Virus record (IMG/VR): IMGVR_UViG_3300037247_000643
Span: 1 to 39,434 of that record
From: a virus
Direction: 5' to 3' (one strand)
DNA length: 39,434 bases
The notes beneath the pieces were generated by a model, which was given only the letters and a program-made list of their open reading frames with translations, was not told where the DNA came from and made no database searches. Below, one piece after another: positions 3 to 33,891 of this stretch. A program made the translations under genes and the position numbers. How positions within the stretch are numbered: position 1 is the first letter of the stretch; each line of letters starts with the position of its first letter.

Positions 3-116
3 GGTGTGCTCAATGCTTGCGACCATAAGGCCGGGGCGATAATATTGGATGCCACACCAGCTAGTTATGTGCATGCCATTATGGTGGGAAGGGTGGAAGG
101 TGATGAACCAGCTTAG
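3..116 (+). CDS. C-terminal end of an unidentified phage protein (partial)
   Basis: The frame starting at base 3 is open from the window edge to a TAG at 114-116. It encodes about 37 residues with ordinary composition (NACDHKAGAIILDATPASYV is included), consistent with the end of a real gene whose start lies outside the window. It overlaps the likely ATG of the RNA ligase at 103 by 14 bases, the tight coupling seen throughout this region. The family is not recognised. Two other frames close early (stops at 26-28 and 40-42), which leaves this as the best reading. Confidence 0.55.
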   Translation, partial: GVLNACDHKAGAIILDATPASYVHAIMVGRVEGDEPA

Positions 117-1029
117 GGGCTATAGCTCACCTTTCAATTTGGGCCATAAGGCGCTGCAGCGTTTGTGGGACGGCGAGGTAATTGTTCAGGAAAAGATTGA
201 TGGCTCGCAATTTAGCTTTGGGATATCCGGATTGGGTGAATTGGTTTGCCGCTCACGCAAGGCTGTCATACTGTTGGGCGATGCTGGCATGTTTAGCCTG
301 GCGGTAGCAACTGCAAAAGATTTATATGAGCAGGGCCTATTGAATAAAGGCTGGACATACCGGGGCGAGTTCCTTATGAAGCCCAAGCATAATACACTGG
401 CCTACGACCGTGTGCCCAAGGGAAATATTATCCTGTTTGATATTGACCGTGGGGACCAACACTATATGAATATGGGGGCACTTATTGACGTGGCAGTGCA
501 TTTGGACTTGGAGTGCGTGCCTACTTATATGGTGCTAGGGGCAAAGCCTAGTTTGGCAGAGCTGCAGCTATTGTTGGCCGACCATACCAGTATTTTGGGC
601 GGCCCGATGGAGGGTATTGTACTCAAGAACTACGAGCAATACGGGCCGGACAGTAAGGTGCTTATGGCCAAGATGGTCAGTGCAGACTTTAGGGAAAAGC
701 ATGGCAAGGATTGGAAGGAGCGCAACCCAACTAGCAAGGATTTTGTGCGGGCGCTGGGGCAGGAGTATGCTACCGAGGCTAGGTGGCGCAAGGCTGTGCA
801 GCACCTGCGGGAACGGGGGGCGATTGAAGGTGCGCCTCAGGACATACCAATTGTGATGCGGGAAATCGTGGGGGACGTGAGAGCAGACTGCGGAGAGGAA
901 ATCAGACAAGCTTTATTCAAACACTTTTGGCCGACAATCCAGCGGCAACTAAATCGGGGCGCTGCTGAGTGGTATAAAGCATTGCTAGCAAAGGAGGCAA
1001 TGGGCGATGAAGATAACAGCGGAAGCTAG
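103..1029 (+). CDS. RNA ligase, T4 Rnl2-like family
   Basis: Covalent nucleotidyltransferase that would seal 3'-OH/5'-PO4 nicks in RNA through a lysyl-AMP intermediate. Visible motifs in the 308-residue protein are motif I KIDG with the nucleotide-accepting Lys31, motif Ia-like RGEF at about 87-90, motif III ILFDID at about 110-115, motif IV EGIVLKNY at 170-177 and motif V VLMAKMVS at 186-193. The C-terminal third (200-308) is a family-specific domain I cannot assign. ATG 103 is preferred over ATG 49 because a G-rich SD-like run (about 86-92) precedes it and it overlaps the upstream stop. The length is close to that of T4 Rnl2. The family call is strong. The natural substrate (cleaved tRNA or other RNA) is inferred from the RtcB, RlaP and tRNA genes nearby. 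Confidence 0.88.
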   Translation: MNQLRGYSSPFNLGHKALQRLWDGEVIVQEKIDGSQFSFGISGLGELVCRSRKAVILLGDAGMFSLAVATAKDLYEQGLLNKGWTYRGEFLMKPKHNTLAYDRVPKGNIILFDIDRGDQHYMNMGALIDVAVHLDLECVPTYMVLGAKPSLAELQLLLADHTSILGGPMEGIVLKNYEQYGPDSKVLMAKMVSADFREKHGKDWKERNPTSKDFVRALGQEYATEARWRKAVQHLRERGAIEGAPQDIPIVMREIVGDVRADCGEEIRQALFKHFWPTIQRQLNRGAAEWYKALLAKEAMGDEDNSGS

Positions 1030-1555
1030 AGCAATAGCTTCGTATATGGTAAGCGGTGTAGGCGGTAATCCTAATGACTCTGATCGTATAAATTTGCTGC
1101 AGGAGCTAACGCAGGGCTATGGTTTAGGTTGGTGCCTGCGGGGAAGCAGCACAGGTCGGGGCATGCGGCTTAGTGAGACCAGTAGGTCATATGCTAAACC
1201 GACAGTGCGGGAAGCCATTGATGCGTTTGCTGGGGTAATAGGGGTAATAGGGGAAATGTGTCATTGTGGTGGCAGCGTGCCATGTGTGGACTGCGGGGCG
1301 GGGCTTTTAGCTATGGATGAACTGTGGGCTGCTTTGTGCCACGCAAAGCTAGATCGTTATTACACCCCACCATATTTGGCATACAATAATCCCATCTATG
1401 GCATCACCACCCGACCTGGCTTCATTTTTGACGATGACTTTTGGGATGTATTTCACTCATTTTCATTCCACATTTGTCATGTGACTAGCCTAATCAATGA
1501 AAGCGAAGGCTTTGGTTTACATCGTGTTTTTGACTTACGGTTCAAGCCAGCTTAG
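1007..1555 (+). CDS. Hypothetical protein with internal Cys cluster
   Basis: 182 residues, not recognised. It starts inside the end of the RNA ligase gene (overlap 23 bases) behind a strong AAAGGAGG at about 989-996. Residues 79-96 hold four Cys (CHCGG...CVDC), a possible metal site. The last 60 residues are rich in aromatic residues (YYTPPYLAYNNPIYG, DDDFWDVFHSF), and the DNA there (about 1360-1550) is visibly more AT-rich than the first half. That suggests a two-domain origin or a recent splice of foreign sequence. Its neighbour suggests co-translation with the ligase, but no function can be given. Confidence 0.7.
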   Translation: MKITAEARAIASYMVSGVGGNPNDSDRINLLQELTQGYGLGWCLRGSSTGRGMRLSETSRSYAKPTVREAIDAFAGVIGVIGEMCHCGGSVPCVDCGAGLLAMDELWAALCHAKLDRYYTPPYLAYNNPIYGITTRPGFIFDDDFWDVFHSFSFHICHVTSLINESEGFGLHRVFDLRFKPA

Positions 1556-1585
1556 ACATTCCTATTTAGGCAGTAAGGTTACTGC
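1530..1585 (+). promoter_or_regulatory. Candidate promoter with downstream palindromic operator
   Basis: TTGACT at 1530-1535, a 17-base gap and a weak -10 TAGACA at 1553-1558 are followed by a perfect 7-base inverted repeat, GCAGTAA-GG-TTACTGC, at 1570-1585. With only two bases between the arms this is a DNA dyad (repressor-type site) rather than an RNA hairpin. It sits in one of the few gaps of the left region, ahead of the gene at 1636. The -10 is poor, so the promoter is tentative; the dyad is plain in the sequence. Confidence 0.35.
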
Positions 1586-1635
1586 TTATATACCATATAC
1601 CGTCCAAACCCTATAGTGACAAAGGAGCGACAAAC

Positions 1636-1953
1636 ATGACACTGCAAGAGGTGTTTCACGAGGTAGCTATGGAGCGGGCTTACCAGCGTATGACCAAGGG
1701 CTATACCTTTGCGCATGACGACAACCATAGTGTGCGGGATTGGATAAGCTTCATGGTTGCATACCTGGGTAGGGCTGCTGGACCTGGGACGGATTGGGGG
1801 CGGGATATTGACATTGTGCGTACCTGCTTCATAAAGGTAGCGGCATTGGCAGTTGCAGCGGTGCAGGCAATAGACCGTGCGTTGGAGCCACCGGCTATAC
1901 TTGAGCCGACCAGGGACCAGCCTATAGCTGAGGGCGAAGACATTGTTGGGTGA
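1636..1953 (+). CDS. Conserved small phage protein (ER..Q / DW / KVAALAVAA type)
   Basis: 105 residues, mostly helical. The pattern (HEVAMERAYQRM near the N-terminus, then DWISFMVAYLGRAA, then RTCFIKVAALAVAAVQAIDR) matches a widespread family of small phage proteins of unknown function that often read ERxxQ...HDD...DW...LGRA...KVAALAVAA. Some resemble all-alpha NTP pyrophosphohydrolases in helix layout, but I see no EExxE-type metal motif, so I do not call an enzyme. AAAGGAG at about 1620-1626 supports ATG 1636. Confidence 0.7.
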   Translation: MTLQEVFHEVAMERAYQRMTKGYTFAHDDNHSVRDWISFMVAYLGRAAGPGTDWGRDIDIVRTCFIKVAALAVAAVQAIDRALEPPAILEPTRDQPIAEGEDIVG

Positions 1954-2402
1954 CCCTGCGCAAGAGCGAGCAAGGGATGCCGACGAAGGATAAGTTGCTG
2001 ATGAGTGAGACTGATTTGACGGGACTAGCTATGTATAGCGGTTGGTGTAGCATGCATGGTGGGTGGTATAATGGTGGAAGCTGTCCTAAGTGTAGTAGCA
2101 GCGATGCAATTGTACCGTTTGAAAAGAAAGCCCTTATTCTAAAGTGTAGCGAGTGCGGCGGCGATTGGTATAATAGCCATGTCTGCTCGCAGCGGGAGGA
2201 AACGATGGACAACGAGCAATATATAGAGTTGAAAAGCACTACCGACCAAAGGTGGACACTAGAGCGGGATGGCATCATGGCCATACGGTGGCAGCAGGAA
2301 GCAGGTCCGTTGCTGGGGGCCAGGGTGTTCATGTATAGCGGGCTGGAGATCCCATTTGTGGGTAAGGAAGCCCAACGGCTAAAGGAGTGGTTCAATGGTT
2401 AG
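1950..2402 (+). CDS. Zinc-ribbon-containing hypothetical protein
   Basis: Up to 150 residues. The first half carries two Cys pairs of a zinc ribbon (WCSMHGG...CPKCSSS, then CSECGG with a nearby CSQR); the second half is an unrecognised alpha/beta domain. The start is uncertain. GTG 1950 overlaps the upstream stop (GTGA), whereas ATG 2001 (MSETDLTG) has AAGGA at 1986-1990 ten bases upstream and may be the true start, giving 133 residues. Both keep the zinc ribbon. Role unknown; RNA or DNA binding is possible for such ribbons. Confidence 0.65.
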   Translation: MTLRKSEQGMPTKDKLLMSETDLTGLAMYSGWCSMHGGWYNGGSCPKCSSSDAIVPFEKKALILKCSECGGDWYNSHVCSQREETMDNEQYIELKSTTDQRWTLERDGIMAIRWQQEAGPLLGARVFMYSGLEIPFVGKEAQRLKEWFNG

Positions 2403-2673
2403 GTTGCTGCAGCGTTTCATTAGTTGGGGGAGCGACGGCTGGGAGTGGAGCAAGTGCTTTGACGAGTCCAGCCCAATGCGGACCGTGTTTCTGAGGGTGG
2501 TGCCTCTGCGGTGGCTGGCTGGTTTTGAGCTTGAGCTTGACAGGGTCGATCCGAAAGAGGCCAGTTGGTTGGGAAATCGGCGGGGCTGGTTATGGTGGCA
2601 TGTGGCTATAAGCATTGGTCCTATACGCATAGCCTTTGACTATGATGCCAAGCTGGAGGCCAGTAGTGGCTAG
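2395..2673 (+). CDS. Hypothetical protein, Trp-rich
   Basis: 92 residues, unknown. AAAGGAG ends about nine bases before ATG 2395, which overlaps the previous stop by eight bases. The protein is rich in Trp and hydrophobic strands (WGSDGWEWSK, RRGWLWWHVAISIGPIRIAF). This pattern is common among small phage proteins predicted as compact beta folds. No motif supports a function. Confidence 0.6.
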   Translation: MVRLLQRFISWGSDGWEWSKCFDESSPMRTVFLRVVPLRWLAGFELELDRVDPKEASWLGNRRGWLWWHVAISIGPIRIAFDYDAKLEASSG

Positions 2674-2896
2674 AGACCTAGTGCTGGGTTGGGTGCGTGA
2701 ACTGACCGACGAATTTATGAGCATGTCCTTTAGGGGGCGGGTTAGTATAGTGCTAATGCTTCCATTCCTTGCGGTGCTGGTGCTGGTCGTTATAGCTGCT
2801 GCAATAGCCATAGCGAAGATACACTGGTTGTATGGGCTGATGATAGTTTCGGGGATATTATTGCTTTTGGGTATAGGGCTGTGGGATGGAGAATGA
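2666..2896 (+). CDS. Small membrane protein, two TM segments
   Basis: 76 residues from GTG 2666, chosen because GGAGG at 2655-2659 lies six bases upstream and the start overlaps the upstream TAG. Two hydrophobic stretches are clear: roughly residues 27-47 (VSIVLMLPFLAVLVLVVIAA) and 55-72 (LYGLMIVSGILLLLGIGL), joined by a short loop. It is probably an inner-membrane protein. Position in the accessory region, far from the lysis genes, argues against it being the main holin. Confidence 0.55.
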   Translation: MARDLVLGWVRELTDEFMSMSFRGRVSIVLMLPFLAVLVLVVIAAAIAIAKIHWLYGLMIVSGILLLLGIGLWDGE

Positions 2897-3042
2897 AGCC
2901 ATTATCTGATGCAAGGGTGGCGGCGATAATTAGTTGGCTGCAGGGCATGCCGTGGTGGGGCCAGGTATGGGCGGTGCTGCATGGGAGGGCCGTAGGGCTG
3001 TGCCCGGTGTGTCGAGGAATAAGGGCGGTGTATCATGGATGA
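2893..3042 (+). CDS. Small hypothetical protein, 49 aa
   Basis: Begins with an ATGA overlap on the previous stop (ATG 2893) after GGATGGAGA. It encodes MKPLSDARVAAIISWLQG followed by a Trp-rich segment and a CPVC pair near the C-terminus. It fills the space between two membrane-protein genes with no gap, which supports translation. No function recognised. Confidence 0.5.
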   Translation: MKPLSDARVAAIISWLQGMPWWGQVWAVLHGRAVGLCPVCRGIRAVYHG

Positions 3043-3154
3043 AGATAGGACCGGTGGAATATTTGTGGTGCTTGTGGTATATTTGCTAGCCGTGGCCCTA
3101 TTGGTGGGGGCTTTTGTGTATAAGCACTTTGTTGTAGGCTGGGTGGGGTGGTGA
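3035..3154 (+). CDS. Single-TM micropeptide, 39 aa
   Basis: ATG 3035 overlaps the end of the preceding gene by eight bases. After an acidic N-terminus (MDEDRTGG) comes one hydrophobic helix of about 20 residues (IFVVLVVYLLAVALLVGAFV) and a short aromatic tail. Such one-helix phage proteins usually sit in the host membrane; the role is unknown. Confidence 0.5.
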   Translation: MDEDRTGGIFVVLVVYLLAVALLVGAFVYKHFVVGWVGW

Positions 3155-3157
3155 TAT

Positions 3158-3394
3158 TTGATTATCCATTGGCTGCGACGTGAGCAGGGGCGCACATTAC
3201 ATGCCTTTGATGCTAGCGACCCAAGGTACCCAATGCTGGCCAAGGGCTGCAGCTACCCGGTATATCCGGGCCAAGAGGAACGAGCAACCGATGCAAGCTA
3301 CAGTGTTTTCAACACAAAGTATTGTCAGCGGTGTTGGTATTGGGTAATAAATATGCGCAATAAGTCAGGCAAGGGAGACGTGGGACATGGATAA
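3158..3394 (+). CDS. Hypothetical Cys-containing protein, 78 aa
   Basis: A stop at 3152-3154 lies two codons upstream in frame, so the protein must begin at TTG 3158, three bases after the previous gene ends, or much later at ATG 3233. A G-rich stretch (GGGGTGG) sits at SD distance. It contains GCSYPV and YCQRCWYWV, a possible partial metal site. Function unknown. A TTG start is less common, so the N-terminus is tentative. Confidence 0.5.
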   Translation: MIIHWLRREQGRTLHAFDASDPRYPMLAKGCSYPVYPGQEERATDASYSVFNTKYCQRCWYWVINMRNKSGKGDVGHG

Positions 3395-3575
3395 GGACAC
3401 GCTAATCGAGTACTTGCAGGCGCTAATTGCCAGGGTTGAAAAGCGGGGTGTGGAAGATGTGTCCCTGCTTAGTGTTTGGGGTATGACTGAGACTACCAGG
3501 CCATTAGATGCGGTGCGCAATTACAGGCCCACCAAGGACCAGTTTATTACCCTGCACATCAGGTACGAGGAATAA
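3387..3575 (+). CDS. Hypothetical protein, 62 aa
   Basis: ATG 3387 lies behind AAGGGAG and overlaps the previous gene by eight bases. The N-terminal half is an amphipathic helix (LIEYLQALIARVEKR); the C-terminal half is short and strand-like. No recognisable family. Confidence 0.5.
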   Translation: MDKDTLIEYLQALIARVEKRGVEDVSLLSVWGMTETTRPLDAVRNYRPTKDQFITLHIRYEE

Positions 3576-3576
3576 A

Positions 3577-3720
3577 ATGGACGACCCATACGGTAGAAAG
3601 CTCCAGGACAATAGGCTTGTAATTGGCGAGCTGTTCCTTGCCGTTTGTTGGGCGCTTGGAATCAATCGTTTGGTTGCATGGCTAGCCAAGCGGATTCGAG
3701 ATATAGATGAGCGGGCCTAG
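3577..3720 (+). CDS. Small membrane-anchored hypothetical protein, 47 aa
   Basis: ATG 3577 is one base after the preceding stop, with GAGGA just upstream; the longer in-frame reading from 3508 would lie inside the previous gene and has no such site. The central segment VIGELFLAVCWALGINRLVA is hydrophobic enough for one membrane helix, followed by a basic amphipathic tail. Unknown function. Confidence 0.5.
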   Translation: MDDPYGRKLQDNRLVIGELFLAVCWALGINRLVAWLAKRIRDIDERA

Positions 3721-3898
3721 CCGTAGCTTTTTTGGGCGGTACCGGTCGTGGTGGCAGTGGAGGCCTTGCAAGCCTTGTAGCGGCACAGGCGAGCAGGTGC
3801 TTACTGTTGACAGTACAGATGGCCGACAGGAAATGGGCATATGCGAGGCCTGCGATGGTACGGGTAAGACGCCCAAAGCCAAAACCAGTAATAGATGA
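3707..3898 (+). CDS. DnaJ-type zinc-finger protein without a J domain
   Basis: 63 residues containing CKPCSGTGEQ and CEACDGTG, two CxxCxGxG repeats like those that bind one zinc ion in the central domain of DnaJ/Hsp40. There is no HPD J-domain motif, so it cannot be a Hsp70 co-chaperone by itself. Stand-alone CxxCxGxG proteins are common in phages, with unknown roles. It overlaps the previous gene by 14 bases. A second gene of this kind lies at 9826-10281. Confidence 0.7.
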   Translation: MSGPSRSFFGRYRSWWQWRPCKPCSGTGEQVLTVDSTDGRQEMGICEACDGTGKTPKAKTSNR

Positions 3899-4031
3899 CC
3901 CATGGCACCACGAGTTGGTGCGCCTTGGTTTTAGCTGGCGGCGTTGCAAGCCTGGCGAACAGGCGTTATACTTGGGGGAGATGGTGCCGGTAAGCCGGGC
4001 ATATTGGAGGCCTAATGGCAGACCCAATTGA
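3855..4031 (+). CDS. Small hypothetical protein, 58 aa, nested start
   Basis: The reading frame gives MVRVRRPKPKPVIDDPWHHE, then LVRLGFSWRRCKPGEQALYL and a Pro/Arg end. ATG 3855 has GAGG at 3845-3848 and lies inside the DnaJ-type gene, overlapping it by 44 bases. The following gene starts 17 bases before this one ends. Alternatively the stretch could be reached by a frameshift from the upstream gene, which ends just where this frame becomes protein-like. The protein is unrecognised. Confidence 0.45.
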   Translation: MVRVRRPKPKPVIDDPWHHELVRLGFSWRRCKPGEQALYLGEMVPVSRAYWRPNGRPN

Positions 4032-4269
4032 CGTAACCAACGGTGTGGCAACATTGGCCAAGGGCTTTGCTGAGGCTGAGCGCAAACGCTTTAGTTCCTA
4101 TTTTCCAAAAGGCATGGTAGAGCATGACGAGCTGCGCAGCATAGTGCATGATGATGACGTGCTGGCATTATTGCTCAAGCTGAAGGGGCTGGAAAGGTGG
4201 AAGGCGGAAGTGCAGCACCTTTTCAGGGACATCATTTTTGGCGAGCAGGAAATAAGAGACGGGGAGTAG
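4015..4269 (+). CDS. Hypothetical helical protein, 84 aa
   Basis: Mostly helical and charged (AEAERKRFSSYFPKGM, DDDVLALLLKLKGLERWKAE). ATG 4015 overlaps the previous gene by 17 bases. Its last ten bases, including the stop TAG, lie inside the tRNA gene that follows, so processing the tRNA from a co-transcript would clip this message at its end. Family not recognised. Confidence 0.6.
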   Translation: MADPIDVTNGVATLAKGFAEAERKRFSSYFPKGMVEHDELRSIVHDDDVLALLLKLKGLERWKAEVQHLFRDIIFGEQEIRDGE

Positions 4270-4335
4270 TCTAGCCAGGCCCAAGGCGCTTGCTTTGGAA
4301 GCAAGAAACCGTAGGTTCGAATCCTACCTTCCCGA
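4260..4335 (+). tRNA. tRNA-Pro (anticodon UGG)
   Basis: A complete 76-base cloverleaf. The acceptor stem CGGGGAG/CTTCCCG (one G-U pair) has C1-G72 as is usual for bacterial tRNA-Pro. The D stem is GTCT/AGGC with GG in the loop. The anticodon stem CTTGC/GCAAG encloses TTTGGAA with anticodon TGG, the variable loop is five bases, and the T stem GTAGG/CCTAC encloses TTCGAAT. Discriminator base A; the CCA tail is not encoded. It would read CCA and, by wobble, other Pro codons. It overlaps the preceding gene's stop codon and ends 20 bases before the RtcB start. Confidence 0.93.
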
Positions 4336-4355
4336 CCTGGTTGAAGGGAGCAGTA

Positions 4356-5669
4356 ATGGATACCAACCAACTTTTGCACGAGCATGGCATATCATCTAAG
4401 ACGGTTGACAATTACCCGGCTATTGCCAAGCATGCTGCGGAGCTAGCATCAGACGGCTTTGGGGTCAAGCATATTATTGAGCATATTCGAAGCCAATACG
4501 TTGTAAATGACAAAGTGACCATGGTTGCATCCAGAGACTACATGGATTGCGTTGTGTTTGGTAAGGAACTTATAGAGCAGAATGCTATTGAGCAGATGGA
4601 CACGGTCATGCGCATTCCACCTGCTGTGGCCGGGGCGCTAATGCCGGATGCGCACTTGGGCTATGGCATGCCTATTGGTGGTGTGGTGGCTTTGGAGAAT
4701 GCAGTGAGCCCCAACTTTGTGGGCTTTGACATTGCATGCCGTATGAAGCTGACCCTGTTTGATTTAGAGGTAGATGCTTTTGATGAGGACAGTTGGTTGG
4801 CGGGGCTGCGCAAGGTTACTAACTTTGGTGTGGGTGGGCGCTTTGCTAGGGAGCAGCGTAGGGACCATGTTGTTATGCAGGACGAGCGGTGGGGGCGGCT
4901 AGGCATTGATAAGGATAAAGGCTGGGCGCAGCTAGGTACATCGGGCAAGGGTAATCACTTTGCTGACATTGTGCTGACGGATTATATTAGCAATGCGGGC
5001 CAAGCACGTAGATACTTAGGACTGCTTACCCATTCAGGCTCGAGGGGGTCGGGTTATGGGGTTGCCAGGAAGTATGGCAAGCTAGCCATTGCAGAGACAG
5101 ACAAGATAGCCTACAACATACCCAAGGGCTATGCTTGGCTGCGCATGGACACCGATCCAGGGCGGGAGTATTGGGCCGCTATGAGTTTGATGGGTGATTA
5201 TGCACAAGCCAATCACGATGTAATACACCGGGAGTTCATGTGGGCTATGTGCCTGAAACCTGCGCTAACGTATGACAACCATCACAACTTTGCGTGGCAG
5301 GAGGGCGATCAATATATCCATCGCAAGGGTGCCACACCTGCAGCCCGTAGTGCATATGGTATCATACCTGGCACCAGTGGCAGCTACTCATATGTAGTGC
5401 AGGGGCTGGGCAATCCGGCTAGCCTAATGTCTGCACCGCATGGAGCGGGCAGGCCATACTCACGCACAGAGGCCAAGGGGCGGCATAATGTGGAGCAGTT
5501 CAAAGACCACATGGACGAGTTTGGTACCAGGCACAAAGGCATAACGGGCGATGAGACCGTGTTTGCTTATAAGGATATTGAAGCGGTAATGGCTGCATCG
5601 CATGCACTGGTGACACCGTGGCTGCAGCTCAAGCCACTGGTTGTGTTGATGGGTGGTGGGCAGCGTTAG
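4356..5669 (+). CDS. rtcB: RtcB-type RNA ligase
   Basis: GTP- and Mn-dependent ligase that joins 2',3'-cyclic phosphate or 3'-phosphate ends to 5'-OH ends, the ends left by anticodon nucleases. The 437-residue protein keeps the key features: PDAHLGYGMPIGG with Asp98, DIACRM with Cys128, GKGNHFAD with His201, THSGSRGSG with His226, NHHNF around 309-311, HRKGATPA, and PHGAGR with His362, matching the guanylylated histidine. DIACRM replaces the usual DIGCGM, but the Cys ligand is kept. ATG 4356 follows GAAGGGAG (4343-4350); the longer reading from 4290 starts inside the tRNA. No archease gene was seen. It directly follows the tRNA-Pro gene and shares the region with an Rnl2-like ligase and RlaP. 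Confidence 0.95.
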   Translation: MDTNQLLHEHGISSKTVDNYPAIAKHAAELASDGFGVKHIIEHIRSQYVVNDKVTMVASRDYMDCVVFGKELIEQNAIEQMDTVMRIPPAVAGALMPDAHLGYGMPIGGVVALENAVSPNFVGFDIACRMKLTLFDLEVDAFDEDSWLAGLRKVTNFGVGGRFAREQRRDHVVMQDERWGRLGIDKDKGWAQLGTSGKGNHFADIVLTDYISNAGQARRYLGLLTHSGSRGSGYGVARKYGKLAIAETDKIAYNIPKGYAWLRMDTDPGREYWAAMSLMGDYAQANHDVIHREFMWAMCLKPALTYDNHHNFAWQEGDQYIHRKGATPAARSAYGIIPGTSGSYSYVVQGLGNPASLMSAPHGAGRPYSRTEAKGRHNVEQFKDHMDEFGTRHKGITGDETVFAYKDIEAVMAASHALVTPWLQLKPLVVLMGGGQR

Positions 5670-5671
5670 CC

Positions 5672-5866
5672 ATGACTGAATTGCCTGAAAACAATTGGAA
5701 CGACTATATGCCGGGCGGCCTTATGCAGTGCTGCACTAAAACCATTGAGGGTACCATCTTTGATGAGCAGCCCCAGGAAGGCGATACATTAGACTGCCGG
5801 TGGTGTGCAGCTACTATGGTCTATCGGGGCGGGGCCTGGTGCTGGGTAGGTTTGGATAATGGGTAG
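5672..5866 (+). CDS. Small Cys-rich (zinc-ribbon-like) protein, 64 aa
   Basis: ATG 5672 comes three bases after the RtcB stop. The protein has MQCCTKT near residue 18 and CRWCAATM near 43, spaced like a zinc ribbon, and a Trp-rich end. The in-frame extension from 5618 lies inside rtcB and is not needed. Role unknown. Confidence 0.6.
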   Translation: MTELPENNWNDYMPGGLMQCCTKTIEGTIFDEQPQEGDTLDCRWCAATMVYRGGAWCWVGLDNG

Positions 5867-6152
5867 GCCGCTAAATCTTGTCAAGGACTGGCTGACCTAT
5901 ACCGTAAAGATTGCTCTACATGGGCGCAAGTTCTACATGGCCATGCTGCGCAAAACTAGCATGCCCGACCATCCTGAGTGGGCGCAACGGGTGCTAAAGA
6001 AGAAGCAGACTGGCAAGCAGCGGGCGATTGATTATCGGGCGGCTGTCATAAAACGCTACTATGCGCTGCAGGCACATGCGCCGCTGAAATTGGACTTGGA
6101 AGGGGCCGAGCTCTTTGGTGTGGGCATGGAAAGGTTGGTGGGTGATGGCTAG
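5859..6152 (+). CDS. Hypothetical basic protein, 97 aa
   Basis: ATG 5859 overlaps the previous gene by eight bases, with GGTAGG upstream. The protein is basic and helical (VLKKKQTGKQRAIDYRAAVI), with a short acidic C-terminus. It may bind nucleic acid, but there is no diagnostic motif. Confidence 0.6.
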   Translation: MGRPLNLVKDWLTYTVKIALHGRKFYMAMLRKTSMPDHPEWAQRVLKKKQTGKQRAIDYRAAVIKRYYALQAHAPLKLDLEGAELFGVGMERLVGDG

Positions 6153-6351
6153 TATATTGCGACATATAACCCAAGAAGAATGGGATGCGGGCCAGTGGAT
6201 AGAAGTTACTACGATTGGTGAGCTGGCAGATGGCAAGCGTGTATTTATACCTGGTATGAAGCAAGCACCAATACCGGAAGGTTGTGCATCGTCTGACGGA
6301 TTGTTGCCAGCGATGACTCACGAGCCGGAAGGAGTATTGGATGGCGATTGA
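6145..6351 (+). CDS. Hypothetical protein, 68 aa
   Basis: ATG 6145 overlaps the upstream stop by eight bases. It has an N-terminal ITQEEWDAGQWIEV segment, then a beta-rich middle; nothing diagnostic. The in-frame extension back to 6115 is inside the previous gene. Unknown function. Confidence 0.55.
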   Translation: MASILRHITQEEWDAGQWIEVTTIGELADGKRVFIPGMKQAPIPEGCASSDGLLPAMTHEPEGVLDGD

Positions 6352-6577
6352 TGGATTTCAAATAACAGTAGAGGCATTGGCGCTAAGATTTGGCATGGAG
6401 CCGACTACCAGTGTGGACGATGCGGAAGTACAAGACTTTGTCTATCTGCGAGGCATAGCTTTATCCGAATTTGTGGGTGACATGATTATGCGTGGGGAAG
6501 TACAGTGGTATCAAGATATAGACGATAAATGGCAGTTGGGGCTAATGACAGATCTTACAAAAGATGGGGAAATATGA
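6341..6577 (+). CDS. Hypothetical acidic protein, 78 aa
   Basis: GGAAGGAG ends about eight bases before ATG 6341, which overlaps the preceding gene by 11 bases. Acidic alpha/beta protein (VDDAEVQDFVYLRGIALSEF). The N-terminus (VEALALRFGM) could form a short helix-turn-helix, but the evidence is too thin for a call. Confidence 0.55.
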   Translation: MAIDGFQITVEALALRFGMEPTTSVDDAEVQDFVYLRGIALSEFVGDMIMRGEVQWYQDIDDKWQLGLMTDLTKDGEI

Positions 6578-6846
6578 TTGGTGTGCCTGGATACGAGTGG
6601 GTGTTGGATAGGGACCAGCAGCCCAAGCTTGTAGAGATGCCTAAGACGATAAAACAGCAGCAGCGGCTTAGGGGTATGGCTATAGCTGCCAAGGCTGCCA
6701 ATAAGCGGATTAGAGACATGGCCATAGATGCAGCCGGGCTTGCTAAACGAGAAGGGCTTGACAGCCGGGTGTTGTATGACCCTGGGCATGTGCGTAGTAG
6801 GCTGCATATGCGATTGCGGGGCCTGTTGTTTGGGAAGGAGCGGTAA
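6574..6846 (+). CDS. Hypothetical basic helical protein, 90 aa
   Basis: Starts with an ATGA overlap at 6574 behind GGGGA. The middle is a long basic, Ala-rich helix (MAIAAKAANKRIRDMAIDAA), followed by an Arg-rich end. It may bind nucleic acid; no family recognised. The extension back to 6529 in the same frame lies inside the previous gene. Confidence 0.55.
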   Translation: MIGVPGYEWVLDRDQQPKLVEMPKTIKQQQRLRGMAIAAKAANKRIRDMAIDAAGLAKREGLDSRVLYDPGHVRSRLHMRLRGLLFGKER

Positions 6847-7101
6847 ATGCCACCGGAACGGTTGGGCAGCATTCAAGCTGACCTAGACGACGTTATTGCT
6901 AGCAGCGAGGGGGAACCTGTTGGCGGCGATAAAAGAAAGGCGGATACGGTATTGCAGCGACAGATAGACCGCTTTGGGCAATATGTGTGTGTACATTGCG
7001 AAGGGACGGTGCTGCTTTGTTGGCGCTATTGTCCTGAATGCGGTGGGGAGATTGTGTGGGCCGGGATCGGAATAAAGAAGGGAGAGGACGCTGGCACTTA
7101 G
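6847..7101 (+). CDS. Zinc-ribbon protein, 84 aa
   Basis: Begins immediately after the previous stop with AAGGAG at SD distance. The C-terminal half carries CVHCEGTVLLC and YCPECGGEI, a rubredoxin-like zinc-ribbon pattern. The N-terminal 45 residues are a charged helix. Role unknown. Confidence 0.65.
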   Translation: MPPERLGSIQADLDDVIASSEGEPVGGDKRKADTVLQRQIDRFGQYVCVHCEGTVLLCWRYCPECGGEIVWAGIGIKKGEDAGT

Positions 7102-7361
7102 ATAGACCAGCTTACCCCACTAACCTAACACCCGTACCAGGTGCAGGCCGAGCGTTGGCCACTTACGTGTGCCCCTGGTGTTCGCTTTCATTACAGAGTA
7201 GTGTGCTGCCCTACATAGTTGGACGCACGCCTGTTGAAATACAGGCCATACTAACCGGCCATATAGAGCTGCATATTAGGACGAACCATCCGGGCATGCC
7301 GGTAGAGGTGATAGTGTACCCACCGGCACTGACGTTGGAGCCTGCGGGCAGGGACATGTAA
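7038..7361 (+). CDS. C2H2-like zinc-finger protein
   Basis: Frame open from ATG 7038 (107 residues), with GTG 7056 as an alternative, overlapping the zinc-ribbon gene upstream by about 64 bases. The unusual overlap makes the start uncertain. The conserved-looking part begins near residue 44: CPWCSLSLQ, then about 30 residues to GHIELHIRTNH, a CxxC...H...H arrangement able to bind zinc. The first 35 residues are Arg-rich and may not be translated. Function unknown. Confidence 0.5.
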   Translation: MRWGDCVGRDRNKEGRGRWHLDRPAYPTNLTPVPGAGRALATYVCPWCSLSLQSSVLPYIVGRTPVEIQAILTGHIELHIRTNHPGMPVEVIVYPPALTLEPAGRDM

Positions 7362-7558
7362 TGGAAAGGAGTGTATTTGCTGGTACCGAATTGGAGCGCA
7401 TGGAACGAGTTAGCCTGGATGAGCTAAAGCTACTGCAACGCATACGGCAATTGGACGGGGGCACCCATGTTATACTCGTCGAGCGTGAAGGCAAGGGCAA
7501 GCTGGCCGGGCTGCGTTTTGTAGTGCAGGAGGCCCAGCTACCGGAAAGGACAAATTAG
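7361..7558 (+). CDS. Hypothetical protein, 65 aa
   Basis: TAATG overlap with the previous stop and AGGGA upstream. It has a predicted helix (SLDELKLLQRIRQLDGG) and two strands (HVILVEREG, LRFVVQE). No family recognised. Confidence 0.5.
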   Translation: MERSVFAGTELERMERVSLDELKLLQRIRQLDGGTHVILVEREGKGKLAGLRFVVQEAQLPERTN

Positions 7559-7560
7559 AT

Positions 7561-8286
7561 ATGCAATTTTATGGCGGTAAGGCTAGGATGCCTTGGATAT
7601 CCGATGCGCTGAATGACATGCGAAAGCCCAATCAAGCTTATTGGGAACCTTTTGTCGGGGCGGGATGGGTGCTTAGTAGGATTGAAAACAATAATGCTTA
7701 TAATTTTGCTAGCGACATTCTTCCAGAACTTATTGCTATGTGGCAAGCATTACAAAATGGATGGGTACCTCCAGAAACTATAACTCTAGCGCAATGGCAA
7801 ATTGCAAAGGTGGGGAATTGTGGGCCTGCATTACGAGCATTTATTGGGTTTGGGTGTAGTTGGGGCGGTAATTGGTTTAGGGGGTCATATCTTATTCGAA
7901 AAAACGGCAAAAGTCAAGCGGCTATTTCCAAGCGTTCACTCATGCGAAAACTGGCAACTATACCAATAACGAAGTTTTATGTTGCTGATTTTTTGGAGGA
8001 AGATCCACCTGAAAATAATATGCTTATATACTGTGACCCGCCATATGAAATGAAAGCGCCTCAAGAATATCGTGCAACAGGACATTTTGATAATGCGGCA
8101 TTTTGGGACAGAGTTAGATTGTTGGCAAGCAGAGGACACATCGTAGTGGTATCTGAATATAAAGCCCCCAATGACTTTGTAGTGATACACCAAAAAACTG
8201 CTAGGCAAGATGTGGGCAGGTGGGGACGTCAGACCACAGATGATGATCTGCGGGTCGAAAAATTGTTTTTGTTGGAGGTGCGCTAG
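7561..8286 (+). CDS. dam: DNA adenine N6-methyltransferase (Dam, D12 class)
   Basis: Transfers a methyl group from S-adenosylmethionine to adenine N6 in DNA. The 241-residue protein has the N-terminal FYGGKARM segment typical of Dam enzymes, the SAM-binding EPFVGAGWV at 29-37 (FxGxG), a target-recognition middle, and the catalytic DPPY at 159-162, in the gamma/alpha order expected of the class. No restriction partner is adjacent, so it is probably an orphan enzyme protecting phage DNA. The gene is clearly more AT-rich than its neighbours (AAT, TTT and ATT-rich codons), a sign of separate acquisition. The target site cannot be read from sequence. Confidence 0.9.
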   Translation: MQFYGGKARMPWISDALNDMRKPNQAYWEPFVGAGWVLSRIENNNAYNFASDILPELIAMWQALQNGWVPPETITLAQWQIAKVGNCGPALRAFIGFGCSWGGNWFRGSYLIRKNGKSQAAISKRSLMRKLATIPITKFYVADFLEEDPPENNMLIYCDPPYEMKAPQEYRATGHFDNAAFWDRVRLLASRGHIVVVSEYKAPNDFVVIHQKTARQDVGRWGRQTTDDDLRVEKLFLLEVR

Positions 8287-8699
8287 TGGGCCACAAAGTT
8301 GACGCATCGGAATACCTACCTGCGGACTACGTAGCGCCAACCAAATGGCAGCGACGGTGGCTGGAGTTTTGGGCACCAGTGCATAGGCTTTGGTATAGGC
8401 TGACCAGGCCAAGGCATTGGTATAAGCGTTGGGCATATGGGGGGACAGTAGTCGAATATGGTTCGTATGACTTGGCTGTGGGACCAACTGCAGAGAATTA
8501 TCCAATACCGGCTAGGTGGGTGCAGCTACAAGTGCATTATGGCTGGTCGCAGCTAGGCGGCGGCGTTTGGGTTAGTAGTGGCTGGGGAGTTATGGATGAA
8601 GTCAAGCGGCTGGAGTTTAGGCTGGGCCTGGGGCCGGTTGAGATATTACTGGCGCATTGCGTGCCTGCTGAATGGTATGTAGCGATGGGGCGTGAGTAG
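8286..8699 (+). CDS. Hypothetical Trp/Tyr-rich protein, 137 aa
   Basis: GTG 8286 overlaps the dam stop by one base behind TTGGAGGTG. The protein begins with a basic aromatic segment (KWQRRWLEFWAPVHRLWYRL), then beta-rich sequence. The first part could lie on a membrane surface. Base composition returns to the regional norm here, so it was not acquired together with dam. Function unknown. Confidence 0.6.
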   Translation: MGHKVDASEYLPADYVAPTKWQRRWLEFWAPVHRLWYRLTRPRHWYKRWAYGGTVVEYGSYDLAVGPTAENYPIPARWVQLQVHYGWSQLGGGVWVSSGWGVMDEVKRLEFRLGLGPVEILLAHCVPAEWYVAMGRE

Positions 8700-8700
8700 T

Positions 8701-8961
8701 GTGGCCAAAGAGGATTATGACCGGCTGGTAATAACCTATGACGAGCGGGTCGAATTTCAAGTAACAGTTGAATATCAAATAGACGAATACAACTACGACG
8801 AGAGGGTCGAGCTGTTGTATGCCTACAGCAAGGTTGATGCCGAGAAGCTGATAGCTGAAAAGTGGGACAAGCTGGGCAAGGAGTATAGGCTTGTGGGTGT
8901 GGGCTGCGTAATGCCACGGCTGAGAACAATGGTGGCAAAGGTAGTGCTGGTGGCACGATGA
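8701..8961 (+). CDS. Hypothetical protein with repeated YDERVE motif, 86 aa
   Basis: GTG 8701 is preferred over GTG 8692 because the GGGG at about 8687-8690 is then at normal spacing. The protein repeats YDERVEF and YDERVEL about 20 residues apart, followed by YAYSKVDAEKLI, a pattern of two short strands and a helix. A small conserved phage fold seems likely; function unknown. Confidence 0.55.
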   Translation: MAKEDYDRLVITYDERVEFQVTVEYQIDEYNYDERVELLYAYSKVDAEKLIAEKWDKLGKEYRLVGVGCVMPRLRTMVAKVVLVAR

Positions 8962-9143
8962 GATATAAGAACAACCGTTGGGTGGAAGGATATAAGCGGT
9001 GCAAGGATTGTGGCTGTTCTTTTGATGATAAGACACAGGCGCAGCCTGGTGGGTATTGTTGGTGTTGCTGGAAATCATTGCCTATGGGTATCCCAATTAT
9101 TATCCGTGCGTATCCGACTCATGCTCGGTTAGGCGGCTGGTAA
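8958..9143 (+). CDS. Zinc-ribbon protein, 61 aa
   Basis: ATGA overlap with the previous stop. CKDCGCSFD and YCWCCWK give a four-Cys zinc ribbon. The end (IPIIIRAYPTHARLGGW) is unremarkable. It closes the operon, since the next genes have their own promoter at 9152-9179. Confidence 0.6.
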   Translation: MRYKNNRWVEGYKRCKDCGCSFDDKTQAQPGGYCWCCWKSLPMGIPIIIRAYPTHARLGGW

Positions 9144-9151
9144 TTTAGAGC

Positions 9152-9179
9152 TTGCAATTGTCGTATAATATGGTATCAT
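9152..9179 (+). promoter_or_regulatory. Sigma-70-type promoter (phage consensus)
   Basis: TTGCAA at 9152-9157, 16 bases, TATCAT at 9174-9179. The same layout, with shared flanking bases (CTTGCAA, GTCGTAT) and a shared downstream GAGGAAAGG leader, recurs at 9448-9475 and in part at 37642-37670. It drives the 56-residue gene at 9204. Confidence 0.75.
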
Positions 9180-9203
9180 TATGAATGAGGAAAGGACAAA
9201 ATA

Positions 9204-9374
9204 ATGAACCAGCAGACAGACTACCGACAAATGAGCAACGAAGCACTAAAGGAAGCATATAAGGCAGCCCGCACCCTTTTTTATAATGCGACCAGGATGC
9301 AGAAGCCCGCTAATGACCTGTACTGGATGATTGATGACATGGAGCAGGAGCTGGCCCGAAGGGACGGGAAATAA
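9204..9374 (+). CDS. Small hypothetical protein, 56 aa, own transcription unit
   Basis: ATG 9204 follows GAGGAAAGG. The protein (MNQQTDYRQMSNEALKEAYK at the N-terminus, ending in MIDDMEQELARRDGK) is one long charged helical hairpin. It lies alone between a promoter (9152-9179) and an intrinsic terminator (9394-9419), so it is expressed as a separate short transcript. Such units often make small host-takeover proteins, but its function is unknown. Confidence 0.6.
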   Translation: MNQQTDYRQMSNEALKEAYKAARTLFYNATRMQKPANDLYWMIDDMEQELARRDGK

Positions 9375-9393
9375 GCACAGACAAATAAATATA

Positions 9394-9419
9394 AGCCCTC
9401 CTAACCGGGGGGCTTTTTT
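9394..9419 (+). terminator. Intrinsic terminator
   Basis: AGCCCTCC (9394-9401), loop TAACC, GGGGGGCT (9407-9414), then T5. An eight-pair stem with one G-U pair. It ends the short 9204-9374 transcript just before the next promoter. Confidence 0.9.
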
Positions 9420-9447
9420 ATTCGGACAAACTGGTGCCTGAAATCGC

Positions 9448-9475
9448 TTGCAATCGTCGTATATTCTGTTATACT
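9448..9475 (+). promoter_or_regulatory. Sigma-70-type promoter (phage consensus)
   Basis: TTGCAA at 9448-9453, 16 bases, TATACT at 9470-9475, followed by GTGAGGAAAGG and the ATG at 9500. It is a near copy of the promoter at 9152-9179 and starts the operon running to about 12.86 kb. Confidence 0.78.
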
Positions 9476-9499
9476 CATAGGTGAGGAAAGGCAAGCAAA

Positions 9500-9826
9500 A
9501 TGCGCTGCACAACCGCTGCACTAAAGGCACTAGGGATAAACGAAGGACACGCTAACGGCAAGTATGCCCGAACTGGAGCCGACGTGCTGGAGCGAATAAT
9601 CCGGAGCGGCTACACCCCAAGGCCGGTAGTTAGCAGTGTAGTGACCAGGTTTGAGCGCAAGATTATCCGACTGAGCGACTTTGTTGAACAACACCCCAAG
9701 GGCAGCTACTACATCAGCACCCACGGACACGCAATGGCACTCATTGATGGCAGACTAATTGACACAACGGAACGTGGAGCGGACGGGCGCTGGGTAATGG
9801 GAGCATACAGATTGGAGCAAAGGTAA
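9500..9826 (+). CDS. Papain-like cysteine-peptidase-fold small phage protein (tentative)
   Basis: 108 residues. RCTTAALKALG at the N-terminus, then SDFVEQHPKGSYYISTHGHA and MALIDGRLIDT, follow a layout seen in many small phage proteins: early Cys, then Gly-x-Tyr...GHA...IDG...D. That resembles a minimal papain/NlpC-like fold with Cys3, His (of GHA) and Asp as a potential triad. Whether it is active, or what it would cleave, is unknown. It is first in the operon behind its own promoter. Confidence 0.55.
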   Translation: MRCTTAALKALGINEGHANGKYARTGADVLERIIRSGYTPRPVVSSVVTRFERKIIRLSDFVEQHPKGSYYISTHGHAMALIDGRLIDTTERGADGRWVMGAYRLEQR

Positions 9827-10281
9827 TGGCCAGCACAACTGACTACTTGGAAGACATGGTACGCACCTTGGGCGGCAAGACATTTACCGGCTGTGTGTAC
9901 TTTGTTGACACCGAGCAGTGCAAGCAGGCTGCAGCCTACATACGTAGCGAGTTCAAGGTACCGGCCAGGGTAGTGCAGATTGACGGCACCACTGGTTTGG
10001 GGCAAGGCTACGTTGGTGGACGGGCGGCGGGGCCTGCGCTCTTTTTGCCTAGCGACGTGGCATATGGTGCGCAGGGCTGGGTAAGCAATGACGAGGATTT
10101 TTGGAACCAGGTAAATGCAGCCGATGCCTGGGCACGGGCGCTGCCTGGCGATGATACGTTTGGCAAGCGATATTGGGCATGCCAAAACTGTGATGGCAAA
10201 GGCGAAATACCAATGTTACTAGGGCCTATCAAGTGCCTCGAATGTGACGGGCGAGGTTATACGGAAAAGGAGCAGAGCTAA
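9826..10281 (+). CDS. Protein with C-terminal DnaJ-type zinc finger
   Basis: 151 residues. An N-terminal alpha/beta domain (TGCVYFVDTEQCKQAAAYIR) of unknown type is followed by CQNCDGKGE and CLECDGRGYT, two CxxCxGxG repeats as in the DnaJ central domain; no J domain. It begins with a TAATG overlap on the previous gene. With the 3707-3898 gene this makes two such proteins in 6 kb. Function unknown; nucleic acid or unfolded-protein binding is possible. Confidence 0.7.
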   Translation: MASTTDYLEDMVRTLGGKTFTGCVYFVDTEQCKQAAAYIRSEFKVPARVVQIDGTTGLGQGYVGGRAAGPALFLPSDVAYGAQGWVSNDEDFWNQVNAADAWARALPGDDTFGKRYWACQNCDGKGEIPMLLGPIKCLECDGRGYTEKEQS

Positions 10282-10541
10282 TGAATTACACACCAGGACC
10301 TTGGCGGGTAAAAAAACATGGCGATAAAATAGGCTTGCAGCGTTTCAATATATTGGGGCCTGGTGACGTAGTAGTAGCACAGGTGCTGCCAAGCCTCAAG
10401 CAAGGCGAGGCCGATGCCCAAGTCATAGCTGCGGTGCCGAGCATGGTGGCTGCATTACAGACTATTGTCGATGAGAGGGACGGAAGCTGGCAGGCTAATG
10501 TGGCTAGGGAAGCATTAGAGGAAGCTGGCATAGATGCGTAA
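10281..10541 (+). CDS. Conserved phage protein of the TPGPW family, 86 aa
   Basis: Starts YTPGPWRVKK and continues to ADAQVIAAVPSMVAALQTIV. This matches a very common phage family that begins TPGPW, with a later ANAxLIAAAPDLLxAL helix. The family's role is unknown. TAATG overlap with the preceding gene. Confidence 0.75.
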   Translation: MNYTPGPWRVKKHGDKIGLQRFNILGPGDVVVAQVLPSLKQGEADAQVIAAVPSMVAALQTIVDERDGSWQANVAREALEEAGIDA

Positions 10542-10707
10542 ACGCTGGCAGCACAGGTGCCCGGCGCTGTTGACTAATAGGGTGCAGTGGGACGTTCGGT
10601 GCTGCTATTGTGGTACAATGCGGACTGAGGAAGGCGAGCAGCTAGCCCGGCAAAGCAGCGTGGCCAAGCGCCACCGACATGGGCGGAAGTGGAGAGGCAA
10701 TGCCTGA
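10534..10707 (+). CDS. Small Cys/Arg-rich protein, 57 aa
   Basis: ATG 10534 overlaps the previous stop by eight bases. CPALL and VRCCYCGTM give a possible CxxC zinc site; the tail is strongly basic (KRHRHGRKWRGNA). Probably nucleic-acid binding, unrecognised. Confidence 0.5.
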   Translation: MRKRWQHRCPALLTNRVQWDVRCCYCGTMRTEEGEQLARQSSVAKRHRHGRKWRGNA

Positions 10708-10858
10708 GCGAATGAGCGAATATGAGTGCAGCGATTGCGATGAGACATGGGTGGCAGAACTGGGAGCTAAGAAGTGTCACATTTGCGGAAGCCAGAACAT
10801 AATAGATTGGCCATTGCCTATTGACACAGAATGCGAGGCCGAAGATAATGGAAGCTAA
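10700..10858 (+). CDS. Zinc-ribbon protein, 52 aa
   Basis: ATG 10700 behind GGAGAGG. The protein is almost only a zinc ribbon: YECSDCDETW and KCHICGSQ, two CxxC knuckles 13 residues apart, resembling small regulatory-protein (FmdB/rubredoxin-like) ribbons. Acidic C-terminus. Overlaps both neighbours by 8-11 bases. Confidence 0.6.
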   Translation: MPERMSEYECSDCDETWVAELGAKKCHICGSQNIIDWPLPIDTECEAEDNGS

Positions 10859-11081
10859 ATTCTTTGTGGGTAAAGAGAAGGGCTATTTGGGCAAGCATGT
10901 TATTGCCCGCACCGTGTTGATGGCTGGGGGCATTACTGCCCTGGAGCTAAAGCTGAAAGGATACCAAGGCGCTGTGTCTGATAGTGTTATGCTTTGGTAT
11001 GATAAGGGCTGGCACTTGGGCTATGACGACTCGGATACTGGCGCATGGACAGTGGTGGCCCTAGAGAGTGTGGTGGCATAG
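10848..11081 (+). CDS. Hypothetical protein, 77 aa
   Basis: ATG 10848 (MEAKFFVGKEKGYLGKHV) overlaps the previous gene by 11 bases. It looks like a small beta-sandwich or barrel (alternating hydrophobic strands, a SVMLWYDKGWHLGYDD turn). It directly precedes and overlaps the RlaP gene by one base, suggesting co-translation. Function unknown. Confidence 0.55.
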   Translation: MEAKFFVGKEKGYLGKHVIARTVLMAGGITALELKLKGYQGAVSDSVMLWYDKGWHLGYDDSDTGAWTVVALESVVA

Positions 11082-11866
11082 TGGGCATACCTAAAGACAT
11101 ACTCCGGGAACAACCGGCCATTGGTGACTGGTGCATACTGGCGGGCTATGTGGGCAGCATAAGCCATGGCACCTTCCGGCCTTTGCAGCATCCCAACTCA
11201 GTTGACGACAAGGACGTAATGGGCATATGTGTGCCGCCCAGGAGCTACTATATTGGGCTAGACACGCATGGTATCCACAAAGGCACTAAGGAAATCAAGC
11301 GTGATGAGTGGGACATTGTAGTCTATGAGGCACGCAAAGCAATCAATCTGCTACTAAAGGGCAACCCTAACGTATTGGCTATACTGTGGCTGGAGGAGAA
11401 CCACTATATAGCCTGTACGTTGGCTGGGCAGCGGCTATTAGATCATCGGGGCTTGTTTGTGGGACGGCATGTGTACAAGCCATTTACCGGGTATGCCTAT
11501 GCCCAGCTTAGGAGGATGGAGAGCTATACCTTCGAAGGCTACATGGGCGAGAAGCGCAAGGCCCTAGTTGACAAGCATGGGTATGACACCAAGAATGCCA
11601 GCCACCTTATTAGGCTGCTCAACATGGGCATCGAGTTTATGCGGGATGGCGAGCTGTACGTCATGCGCCACGATGCACCCAAGTATTTGGACATCAAGGA
11701 TGGCAGGTGGACGCTGCAGCAGGTGAAGGACGAAGCCGAGCGACTATTTAGGGTAGCAGAGGAAGCTTACCTGGCCAGCACCTTGCCGAAAAAGCCGGAC
11801 AAGAAACTGGTAAGTGAGCTGTGTGCAGAAGTGGTAGAATTGGCCCTAGCGGAAAGGATGGCATAA
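11081..11866 (+). CDS. RlaP-like nucleotidyltransferase (RNA repair polymerase-beta family)
   Basis: 261 residues from GTG 11081, overlapping the previous stop by one base. The nucleotidyltransferase core shows LAGYVGSISHGTF (GSxxHG) followed by DDKDVMGI at 42-49, giving the paired Asp ligands for metal-nucleotide. This is the signature of the COG3541/RlaP family of polymerase-beta-type nucleotidyltransferases. Comparative genomics (Burroughs and Aravind) links that family with RNA ligases in RNA repair operons, where it may rebuild damaged 3' ends. A helical C-terminal part (conserved-looking HLIRLLNMGIEFMRDG) fits the family. Rnl2-like ligase, RtcB and a tRNA gene lie upstream. Family call good; substrate unproven. 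Confidence 0.85.
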   Translation: MGIPKDILREQPAIGDWCILAGYVGSISHGTFRPLQHPNSVDDKDVMGICVPPRSYYIGLDTHGIHKGTKEIKRDEWDIVVYEARKAINLLLKGNPNVLAILWLEENHYIACTLAGQRLLDHRGLFVGRHVYKPFTGYAYAQLRRMESYTFEGYMGEKRKALVDKHGYDTKNASHLIRLLNMGIEFMRDGELYVMRHDAPKYLDIKDGRWTLQQVKDEAERLFRVAEEAYLASTLPKKPDKKLVSELCAEVVELALAERMA

Positions 11867-12980: not shown

Positions 12981-12995
12981 CGGAGGAAAAGCAAA

Positions 12996-18080: not shown

Positions 18081-18102
18081 TCTAACGGGCCAGGAGGCGA
18101 GT

Positions 18103-33884: not shown

Positions 33885-33891
33885 CAATATA

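Follow-up and report, generated by a model that had tools for sequence, protein, structure and literature searches.

A probable phage RNA-repair set of an Rnl2-type ligase, RtcB, an RlaP-family nucleotidyltransferase and tRNA-Pro on a 39.4-kb phage fragment

Phage T4 mends PrrC-cut tRNA-Lys by means of Pnkp-Rnl1. In other phages RtcB, Rnl1 and Rnl2 are combined, as in BcepSauron and BcepSaruman, which carry all three, and RlaP mirrors the ligases (Iyer et al. 2021, PMC7824862, an account that builds on Burroughs and Aravind 2016). For RtcB together with a phage tRNA a counter-defence role was proposed by Pope et al. 2011 (PMC3203893), and in the bacterial rsr-yrlBA-rtcBA operon the rtcBA genes are preceded by the YrlA RNA, which has a tRNA-like domain (PMC7790460).

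We analysed a 39.4-kb piece of a tailed phage (the window, which spans a full, fragmentary IMG/VR record) that carries an Rnl2-type RNA ligase, a tRNA-Pro, an RtcB-family ligase and an RlaP-family nucleotidyltransferase, throughout on the + strand; together these probably constitute a phage RNA-repair and translation-protection set. The set would share with T4 Pnkp-Rnl1 the logic of resealing nuclease-cut tRNA, with other enzymes and with no kinase/phosphatase seen. The initial annotation presented it as a solution different from that of T4; as a novelty it was preceded by Iyer et al. 2021 (PMC7824862) and Pope et al. 2011 (PMC3203893): the toolkit concept is already known and other phages carry comparable sets. 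Like the jumbo-phage complements (PMC7824862), for which an identical role was proposed, the window unites RtcB, an ATP-grasp RNA ligase, RlaP and a tRNA, but it differs from them in the 12-kb span, in being a genome fragment, in its probable Chloroflexota host and in that PNKP, 2H and Thg1 were not seen on the fragment. Crifsvirus A24 and ECO319P1 (isolated, 75 kb) likewise have a same-strand Rnl2-family ligase and RtcB within ~10 kb, whereas the RlaP match is absent there and the proteins are 23-37% identical. IMG/VR contig 3300005253_000144 (102 kb, G006) unites the full trio of families with a tRNA-Pro(UGG), and its RtcB is 46-47% and its RlaP 58% identical to those of the window; its RNA ligase, however, is of another subtype with the canonical KxK, it has two RlaP copies and, in the parts read, just RtcB and RlaP are closely common to these otherwise unrelated sequences. 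The Cluster K1 mycobacteriophages (PMC3203893) also combine a single tRNA (tRNA-Trp) with RtcB, but with the tRNA by the left end and rtcB by the right end instead of in tandem. Unlike the rsr-yrlBA-rtcBA operon, the window has a true tRNA gene, and Rsr, RtcA and RtcR were not seen on the fragment.

The head-tail genes of the window are matched by prophage-like loci of two Chloroflexota MAGs, and the host is probably a bacterium of the Chloroflexota. Phage records contained zero near-DNA relatives of the window, and a close relative was also absent when viral contigs were scanned one protein at a time (RtcB, Rnl). The structural relatives (from IMG/VR and the two MAGs) were without repair genes on the stretches read, and the repair genes are therefore considered accessory. 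These genes do not form a single tight cassette and are scattered across 12 kb amid small unknown genes. A D12-class DNA adenine methyltransferase gene (7561..8286, + strand; PF02086 1.8e-10; PADLOC type II MTase 8e-12) also lies amid them, as context outside the repair set. Neither a polynucleotide kinase/phosphatase, as had been remarked initially, nor PrfH or 2H-like partners were found among the scanned proteins of this fragment.

The family assignments of the initial annotation were upheld for all three enzymes, with Pfam matches above the curated cut-offs and PHROGs in agreement. The RNA ligase (308 aa; 103..1029, + strand) matches PF09414 (E=4e-9, 37.3 bits, cut-off 27) and phrog_548 'RNA ligase' (1e-24). 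It contains motif I (K31-I-D-G) and motif IV (E170-G-I-V), and K31, D33, G34, E170, G171 and V173, as well as K190 of motif V, are invariant in the alignment. The top PDB match of its structural model (pLDDT only 70.5) is T4 Rnl2 (2hvr, E 1.1e-10), followed by the Naegleria RNA ligase; sequence searches of the PDB with Rnl and with RlaP gave chance matches only, and NCBIfam returned a family for neither. The Rnl2 label was thus borne out by the Pfam family, motifs I/IV and the fold, but not by motif V, which is K190-M-V (KxV) where T4 Rnl2 has KxK, and we therefore file the protein as Rnl2-type rather than as a T4 Rnl2 orthologue. Since KxV is also found in L028, L299, Staphylococcus phage G15 and others, we take it as a subfamily trait.

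RtcB (437 aa; 4356..5669, + strand) matches PF01139 (2e-69, 235 bits, cut-off 27) and phrog_1075 'tRNA splicing ligase' (2e-83). As judged across 76-77 sequences, the catalytic residues D125, C128, N200, H201, H226, H310, K324, H362 (the nucleophile), R366 and Y405 are kept; two positions deviate (E206 to D and K480 to M, P. horikoshii numbering), as they do in most phage relatives. As a member of this family, the protein is predicted to perform GTP-dependent 3'-phosphate/5'-OH ligation. The nearest relatives are 47% identical, and the protein shares an N-terminal extension with L022 and L023; the nearest of all, on the 79.5-kb contig L022, is accompanied by neither an RNA ligase nor RlaP.

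The tRNA-Pro gene (anticodon UGG (TGG); 4260..4337, + strand), called by ARAGORN and scored at 61 bits over 4260-4335 by the Rfam tRNA model (RF00005), ends 18 nt before the rtcB ATG, close to the 20 bases given initially. It has A at position 37 and its CCA is incompletely encoded (ACC, then T). A specific tie of A37 tRNA-Pro to RtcB is not claimed (RtcB in 5/112 A37 and 0/104 G37 loci, Fisher p 0.06), and a blast for a host-like tRNA in the two Chloroflexota MAGs recovered short stretches only. The tandem arrangement recurs: tRNA genes lie 13-19 nt upstream of rtcB in four RtcB lineages, of which the other three are 28-33% identical to the window RtcB, and the isotypes of the rtcB-adjoining tRNAs were varied in loci that had not been selected by tRNA. 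A literature search on phage tRNA-rtcB tandems returned nothing specific, and this arrangement looks like a less explored point. It could be that phages have repeatedly built the tandem as one transcription unit, in which a nuclease-insensitive or sacrificial tRNA is joined to the mending ligase and rtcB expression is tied to processing or cleavage of the leader tRNA; the most striking case would then be a tRNA-Pro(UGG) without the TrmD-methylated G37 and with rtcB 14-18 nt downstream, a reading that we put forward as speculation and hold to be doubtful.

The RlaP-family (PF10127) minimal nucleotidyltransferase (261 aa; 11081..11866, + strand) matches its Pfam model at 8e-18 (65.5 bits, cut-off 23) and phrog_388 at 2e-46. 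It starts with GTG, in a one-base overlap with the preceding stop, and an ATG at 11045 is open too. The GS...DxD...D core of the Pol-beta nucleotidyltransferases is intact, with G25, S26, D43 and D45 invariant and D78 conserved to at least 90% (38 sequences), and the protein is predicted to add nucleotides to RNA 3' ends, the substrate being part of that prediction. Among solved structures, its model (pLDDT 94) comes closest to HalB, which belongs to the Hailong defence system (Foldseek E 4e-5, prob 1.00; VIA Z 9.1 over 173 aligned residues, rmsd 4.6, which is barely over the stated noise level of the tool), followed by aminoglycoside nucleotidyltransferases (Z 7-8); among the top fold matches listed there was no known RNA-repair enzyme. 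This resemblance of the model to HalB looks like another less explored point.

We then compared 50 RtcB-positive and 50 RlaP-positive contigs with 50 random IMG/VR contigs, stratified by size; the samples were taken from relatives of one query, so that contigs are not independent. RNA ligases were present in 15/50 RtcB-positive versus 2/50 random contigs (OR 7.6, p 0.002), RlaP in 9/50 versus 2/50 (OR 4.5, p 0.02) and, among the RlaP-positive contigs, RtcB in 11/50 versus 0/50 (p 0.01) and RNA ligases in 18/50 versus 2/50 (OR 6.0, p 0.007). The families are therefore associated in phages beyond chance, contrary to the chance-level co-occurrence that the initial annotation had named as grounds for rejection, and all three occur together in ten further contigs. 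An RNA ligase lies within 10 kb in 13/80 RtcB loci, often as the immediate same-strand neighbour, and in 9/80 RlaP loci; on the RtcB tree the proximity label changes 13 times, of which at least 11 changes are forced. The suggested link of RlaP with ligases holds at the level of contigs, although the close homologues (50-60% identical) are mostly found on contigs that lack RtcB and RNA ligase and may be fragments.

We infer that the set probably serves to undo host RNA cutting used as defence, and that tRNA, rather than rRNA or mRNA, would be its substrate. RtcB would reseal the RNA halves that metal-independent anticodon nucleases produce, in which a 5'-OH faces a 2',3'-cyclic phosphate (or 3'-phosphate), and the Rnl2-type ligase those with 3'-OH and 5'-phosphate, the products of metal-dependent nucleases; such opposite end chemistries, already pointed out initially, are established knowledge of both families. 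Before ligation RlaP would restore nucleotides missing from the 3' end, and the tRNA-Pro may act as a spare substrate on a putative shared transcript with rtcB. Because both end chemistries would be covered directly, a kinase/phosphatase would not strictly be required.

A chance gathering of unrelated accessory genes in a cargo-tolerant genome, large phages having more of everything, would fit the unknown ORFs between the repair genes, the structural relatives without them and the higher frequency of RlaP and ligases on larger contigs, but the association persists after size stratification and same-strand RtcB/RNA ligase neighbours recur over the RtcB tree, which makes this explanation quite improbable. 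For RlaP taken singly, a role outside RNA repair, as a HalB-like or a drug/toxin-type nucleotidyltransferase (with, for example, DNA/RNA homopolymer synthesis or modification of proteins or tRNA 3' ends as activities), is a somewhat less likely option that deserves attention: the order of the fold matches and the scarcity of linked ligases near its closest homologues speak for it, whereas the marginal Z score, the lack of any sequence match to HalB, the enrichment of RNA ligases on RlaP-positive contigs with the 9/80 nearby ligases, and the empty PADLOC result for RlaP and its two neighbours, where a HalA channel partner would be expected (in a 2023 version that may not include Hailong), speak against it.

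RtcB2 with PrfH is reported to mend ribosomal RNA, and the best NCBIfam matches of the window RtcB, PRK09588 and TIGR03073 'release_rtcB', each below cut-off, would agree with repair of rRNA cut by ribosome-inactivating nucleases instead of tRNA; as scanning of window proteins turned up no PrfH-like release factor and rtcB adjoins a tRNA gene rather than a release factor, here and in other contigs, we regard this as very improbable. Mere maintenance of the phage or host tRNA supply for fast translation, with no anti-defence role, was proposed for Privateer (PMC7881722) and would be in line with the co-occurrence of RtcB and tRNAs (tRNAs in 28/80 RtcB versus 5/120 control loci, the controls being shorter); one tRNA, however, adds little codon supply, and two ligases of opposite chemistry would be poorly explained, so that we consider this unlikely and retain repair of defence-inflicted cuts as the preferred reading.

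The window thus provides a further example, probably infecting Chloroflexota, of phages that stack RNA ligases with complementary end chemistry, and it gives the association, which is described qualitatively in the surveys compared, a size-controlled figure. Should the tRNA-rtcB tandem prove functional, it would name a candidate substrate for the phage RtcB and therefore make the question which RNA this ligase mends directly testable.

The RNA ligase (PF09414; 103-1029), RtcB (4356-5669), RlaP (11081-11866) and tRNA-Pro(TGG) (4260-4337) that the initial annotation had grouped as a phage RNA-repair set were all confirmed where it had placed them, on the + strand. None of the mapped catalytic residues, among them H362, the histidine that is guanylylated, has been lost from the window RtcB, which deviates at two further positions, as do most of its phage relatives. 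Motifs I and IV are conserved in the RNA ligase, and of the two motif V lysines it has kept the first and has V in place of the second; because the same change occurs in two compared loci (L028 and L299) and in Staphylococcus phage G15, it is a subfamily trait. Its predicted model is moderate (pLDDT 70.5), with T4 RNA ligase 2 as top match. A 182-aa ORF (1007-1555) that overlaps the 3' end of the ligase gene matched nothing in Pfam, PHROGs, PADLOC or NCBIfam. The nucleotidyltransferase core of RlaP is kept; the best solved match of its confident predicted model (pLDDT 94.4) was HalB, from the Hailong defence system, with aminoglycoside nucleotidyltransferases next, and these matches of a model speak for the fold, not for the substrate.

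Three sets of 50 IMG/VR contigs each were compared: RtcB-bearing (RNA_ligase profile on 15, RlaP on 9, both on 4), RlaP-bearing (RNA_ligase 18, RtcB 11, both 7) and a control chosen by an arbitrary 14-mer (RNA_ligase 2, RlaP 2, RtcB 0). Co-occurrence, for which the initial annotation had proposed a search, was better than chance (size-stratified Mantel-Haenszel tests, one-sided p 0.002-0.023), these being contig-level tests without phylogenetic correction on fragments drawn from relatives of one query. All three families were found together on ten distinct contigs of 65-527 kb (G006, G008, G009, G019, G079, G081, G083, G084, G089 and G093). An RNA ligase lay within 10 kb of RtcB in 13 of 80 RtcB loci, several of which (L058, L062, L071, L081, L091, L096/L097, L028 and L023) have the two as same-strand neighbours, and on the RtcB tree this proximity changed 13 times, at least 11 of the changes being forced by supported branches. 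About 3 kb from the pair in L023 (G006), an ORF (17187-17621) resembles, by eye, a SpoU/TrmH RNA 2'-O-methyltransferase. On contig 3300031965_000023 (G083), RNA ligase, RlaP and tRNA-Pro(UGG, A37) lie head to tail on one strand within 2 kb (locus L289, 3007-4940), the tRNA opening an array of 16 tRNAs a few nt 3' of RlaP; RtcB is encoded at another place on that contig.

On its 5' side the window tRNA-Pro(UGG) gene overlaps the 3' end of a small ORF; on its 3' side a gap of 18 nt separates it from the rtcB start codon. Its 3' CCA is incompletely encoded. Base 37 is A, at a position whose m1G37 modification has been linked across evolution to every tRNA-Pro isoacceptor (PMC8384417). Two pattern scans yielded tRNA-Pro loci of both kinds: of 112 that carry A37, 5 had RtcB, and of 104 that carry G37, none did (p 0.06, not significant). 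In all five RtcB adjoins the tRNA on the same strand: the tRNA-Pro precedes rtcB by 14 nt in L464 and by 17 nt in L489, one or two extra tRNAs intervene in L413 and L451 (leaving 13 and 19 nt between the last one and the probable start of rtcB), and in L449 the tRNA-Pro lies 3' of rtcB. Because these RtcBs are 28-33% identical to that of the window, the arrangement was probably assembled more than once. RtcB loci picked regardless of tRNAs had adjoining tRNAs of many isotypes, which leaves proline with no special standing. The Salmonella rsr-yrlBA-rtcBA operon, with its tRNA-like YrlA RNA, offers a parallel (PMC7790460). Phage tRNAs of the class methylated at G37 in bacteria often have A37 (window tRNA and loci L382-L501 and L502-L621: 3/14 distinct tRNA-Pro(UGG) and 6/9 tRNA-Leu(UAG/CAG) in loci not selected for it, and many more by pattern), which may free them from TrmD or from nucleases reading position 37.

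The window (39,434 bases, the entire virus record) is a tailed-phage fragment with a fused protease/capsid protein (18013-20697), a tape measure (27258-30011) and a GH25 lysozyme (33856-34722); no gene upstream of that for the capsid was recognised as portal or terminase. Four IMG/VR fragments encode relatives of the capsid protein (46-54% identity), and so do two contigs from Chloroflexota MAGs, one of them Anaerolineales, in which a block of head-tail genes keeps the window's order; this suggests a Chloroflexota host. The stretches read contained no RlaP or RNA ligase in the four fragments (searched for these two) and no RtcB, RlaP or RNA ligase in the MAG contigs, and RlaP was absent from both MAGs; since capsid relatives thus lack them there, the repair genes are accessory. 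Counterparts of 12963-13628 and 16835-17644, 5' of the capsid gene in the window, lie 3' of it in L004; a rearrangement of the structural module has therefore taken place. Downstream of the lysozyme, in the region 34694-36499, a GIY-YIG/NUMOD3 homing-type nuclease (35458-35946) separates an MptE-like gene from one for a methyltransferase.

Both the idea and the gene combination were published by Iyer et al. (PMC7824862), phage tRNA and RtcB were tied to defence against tRNA cleavage by Pope et al. in 2011 (PMC3203893), and in Crifsvirus isolates Rnl2 and RtcB lie about 10 kb apart or less; the window set is therefore a further case of a known type, not new, and its least explored part is the tRNA-rtcB tandem. 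From family chemistry, the set most likely works in counter-defence tRNA repair: RtcB would reseal cyclic-phosphate/5'-OH breaks and the Rnl2-type ligase 3'-OH/5'-phosphate breaks, RlaP would put back missing 3' nucleotides and the phage tRNA would be a spare; the combined effect would be to undo tRNA cleavage by the host's defence nucleases.
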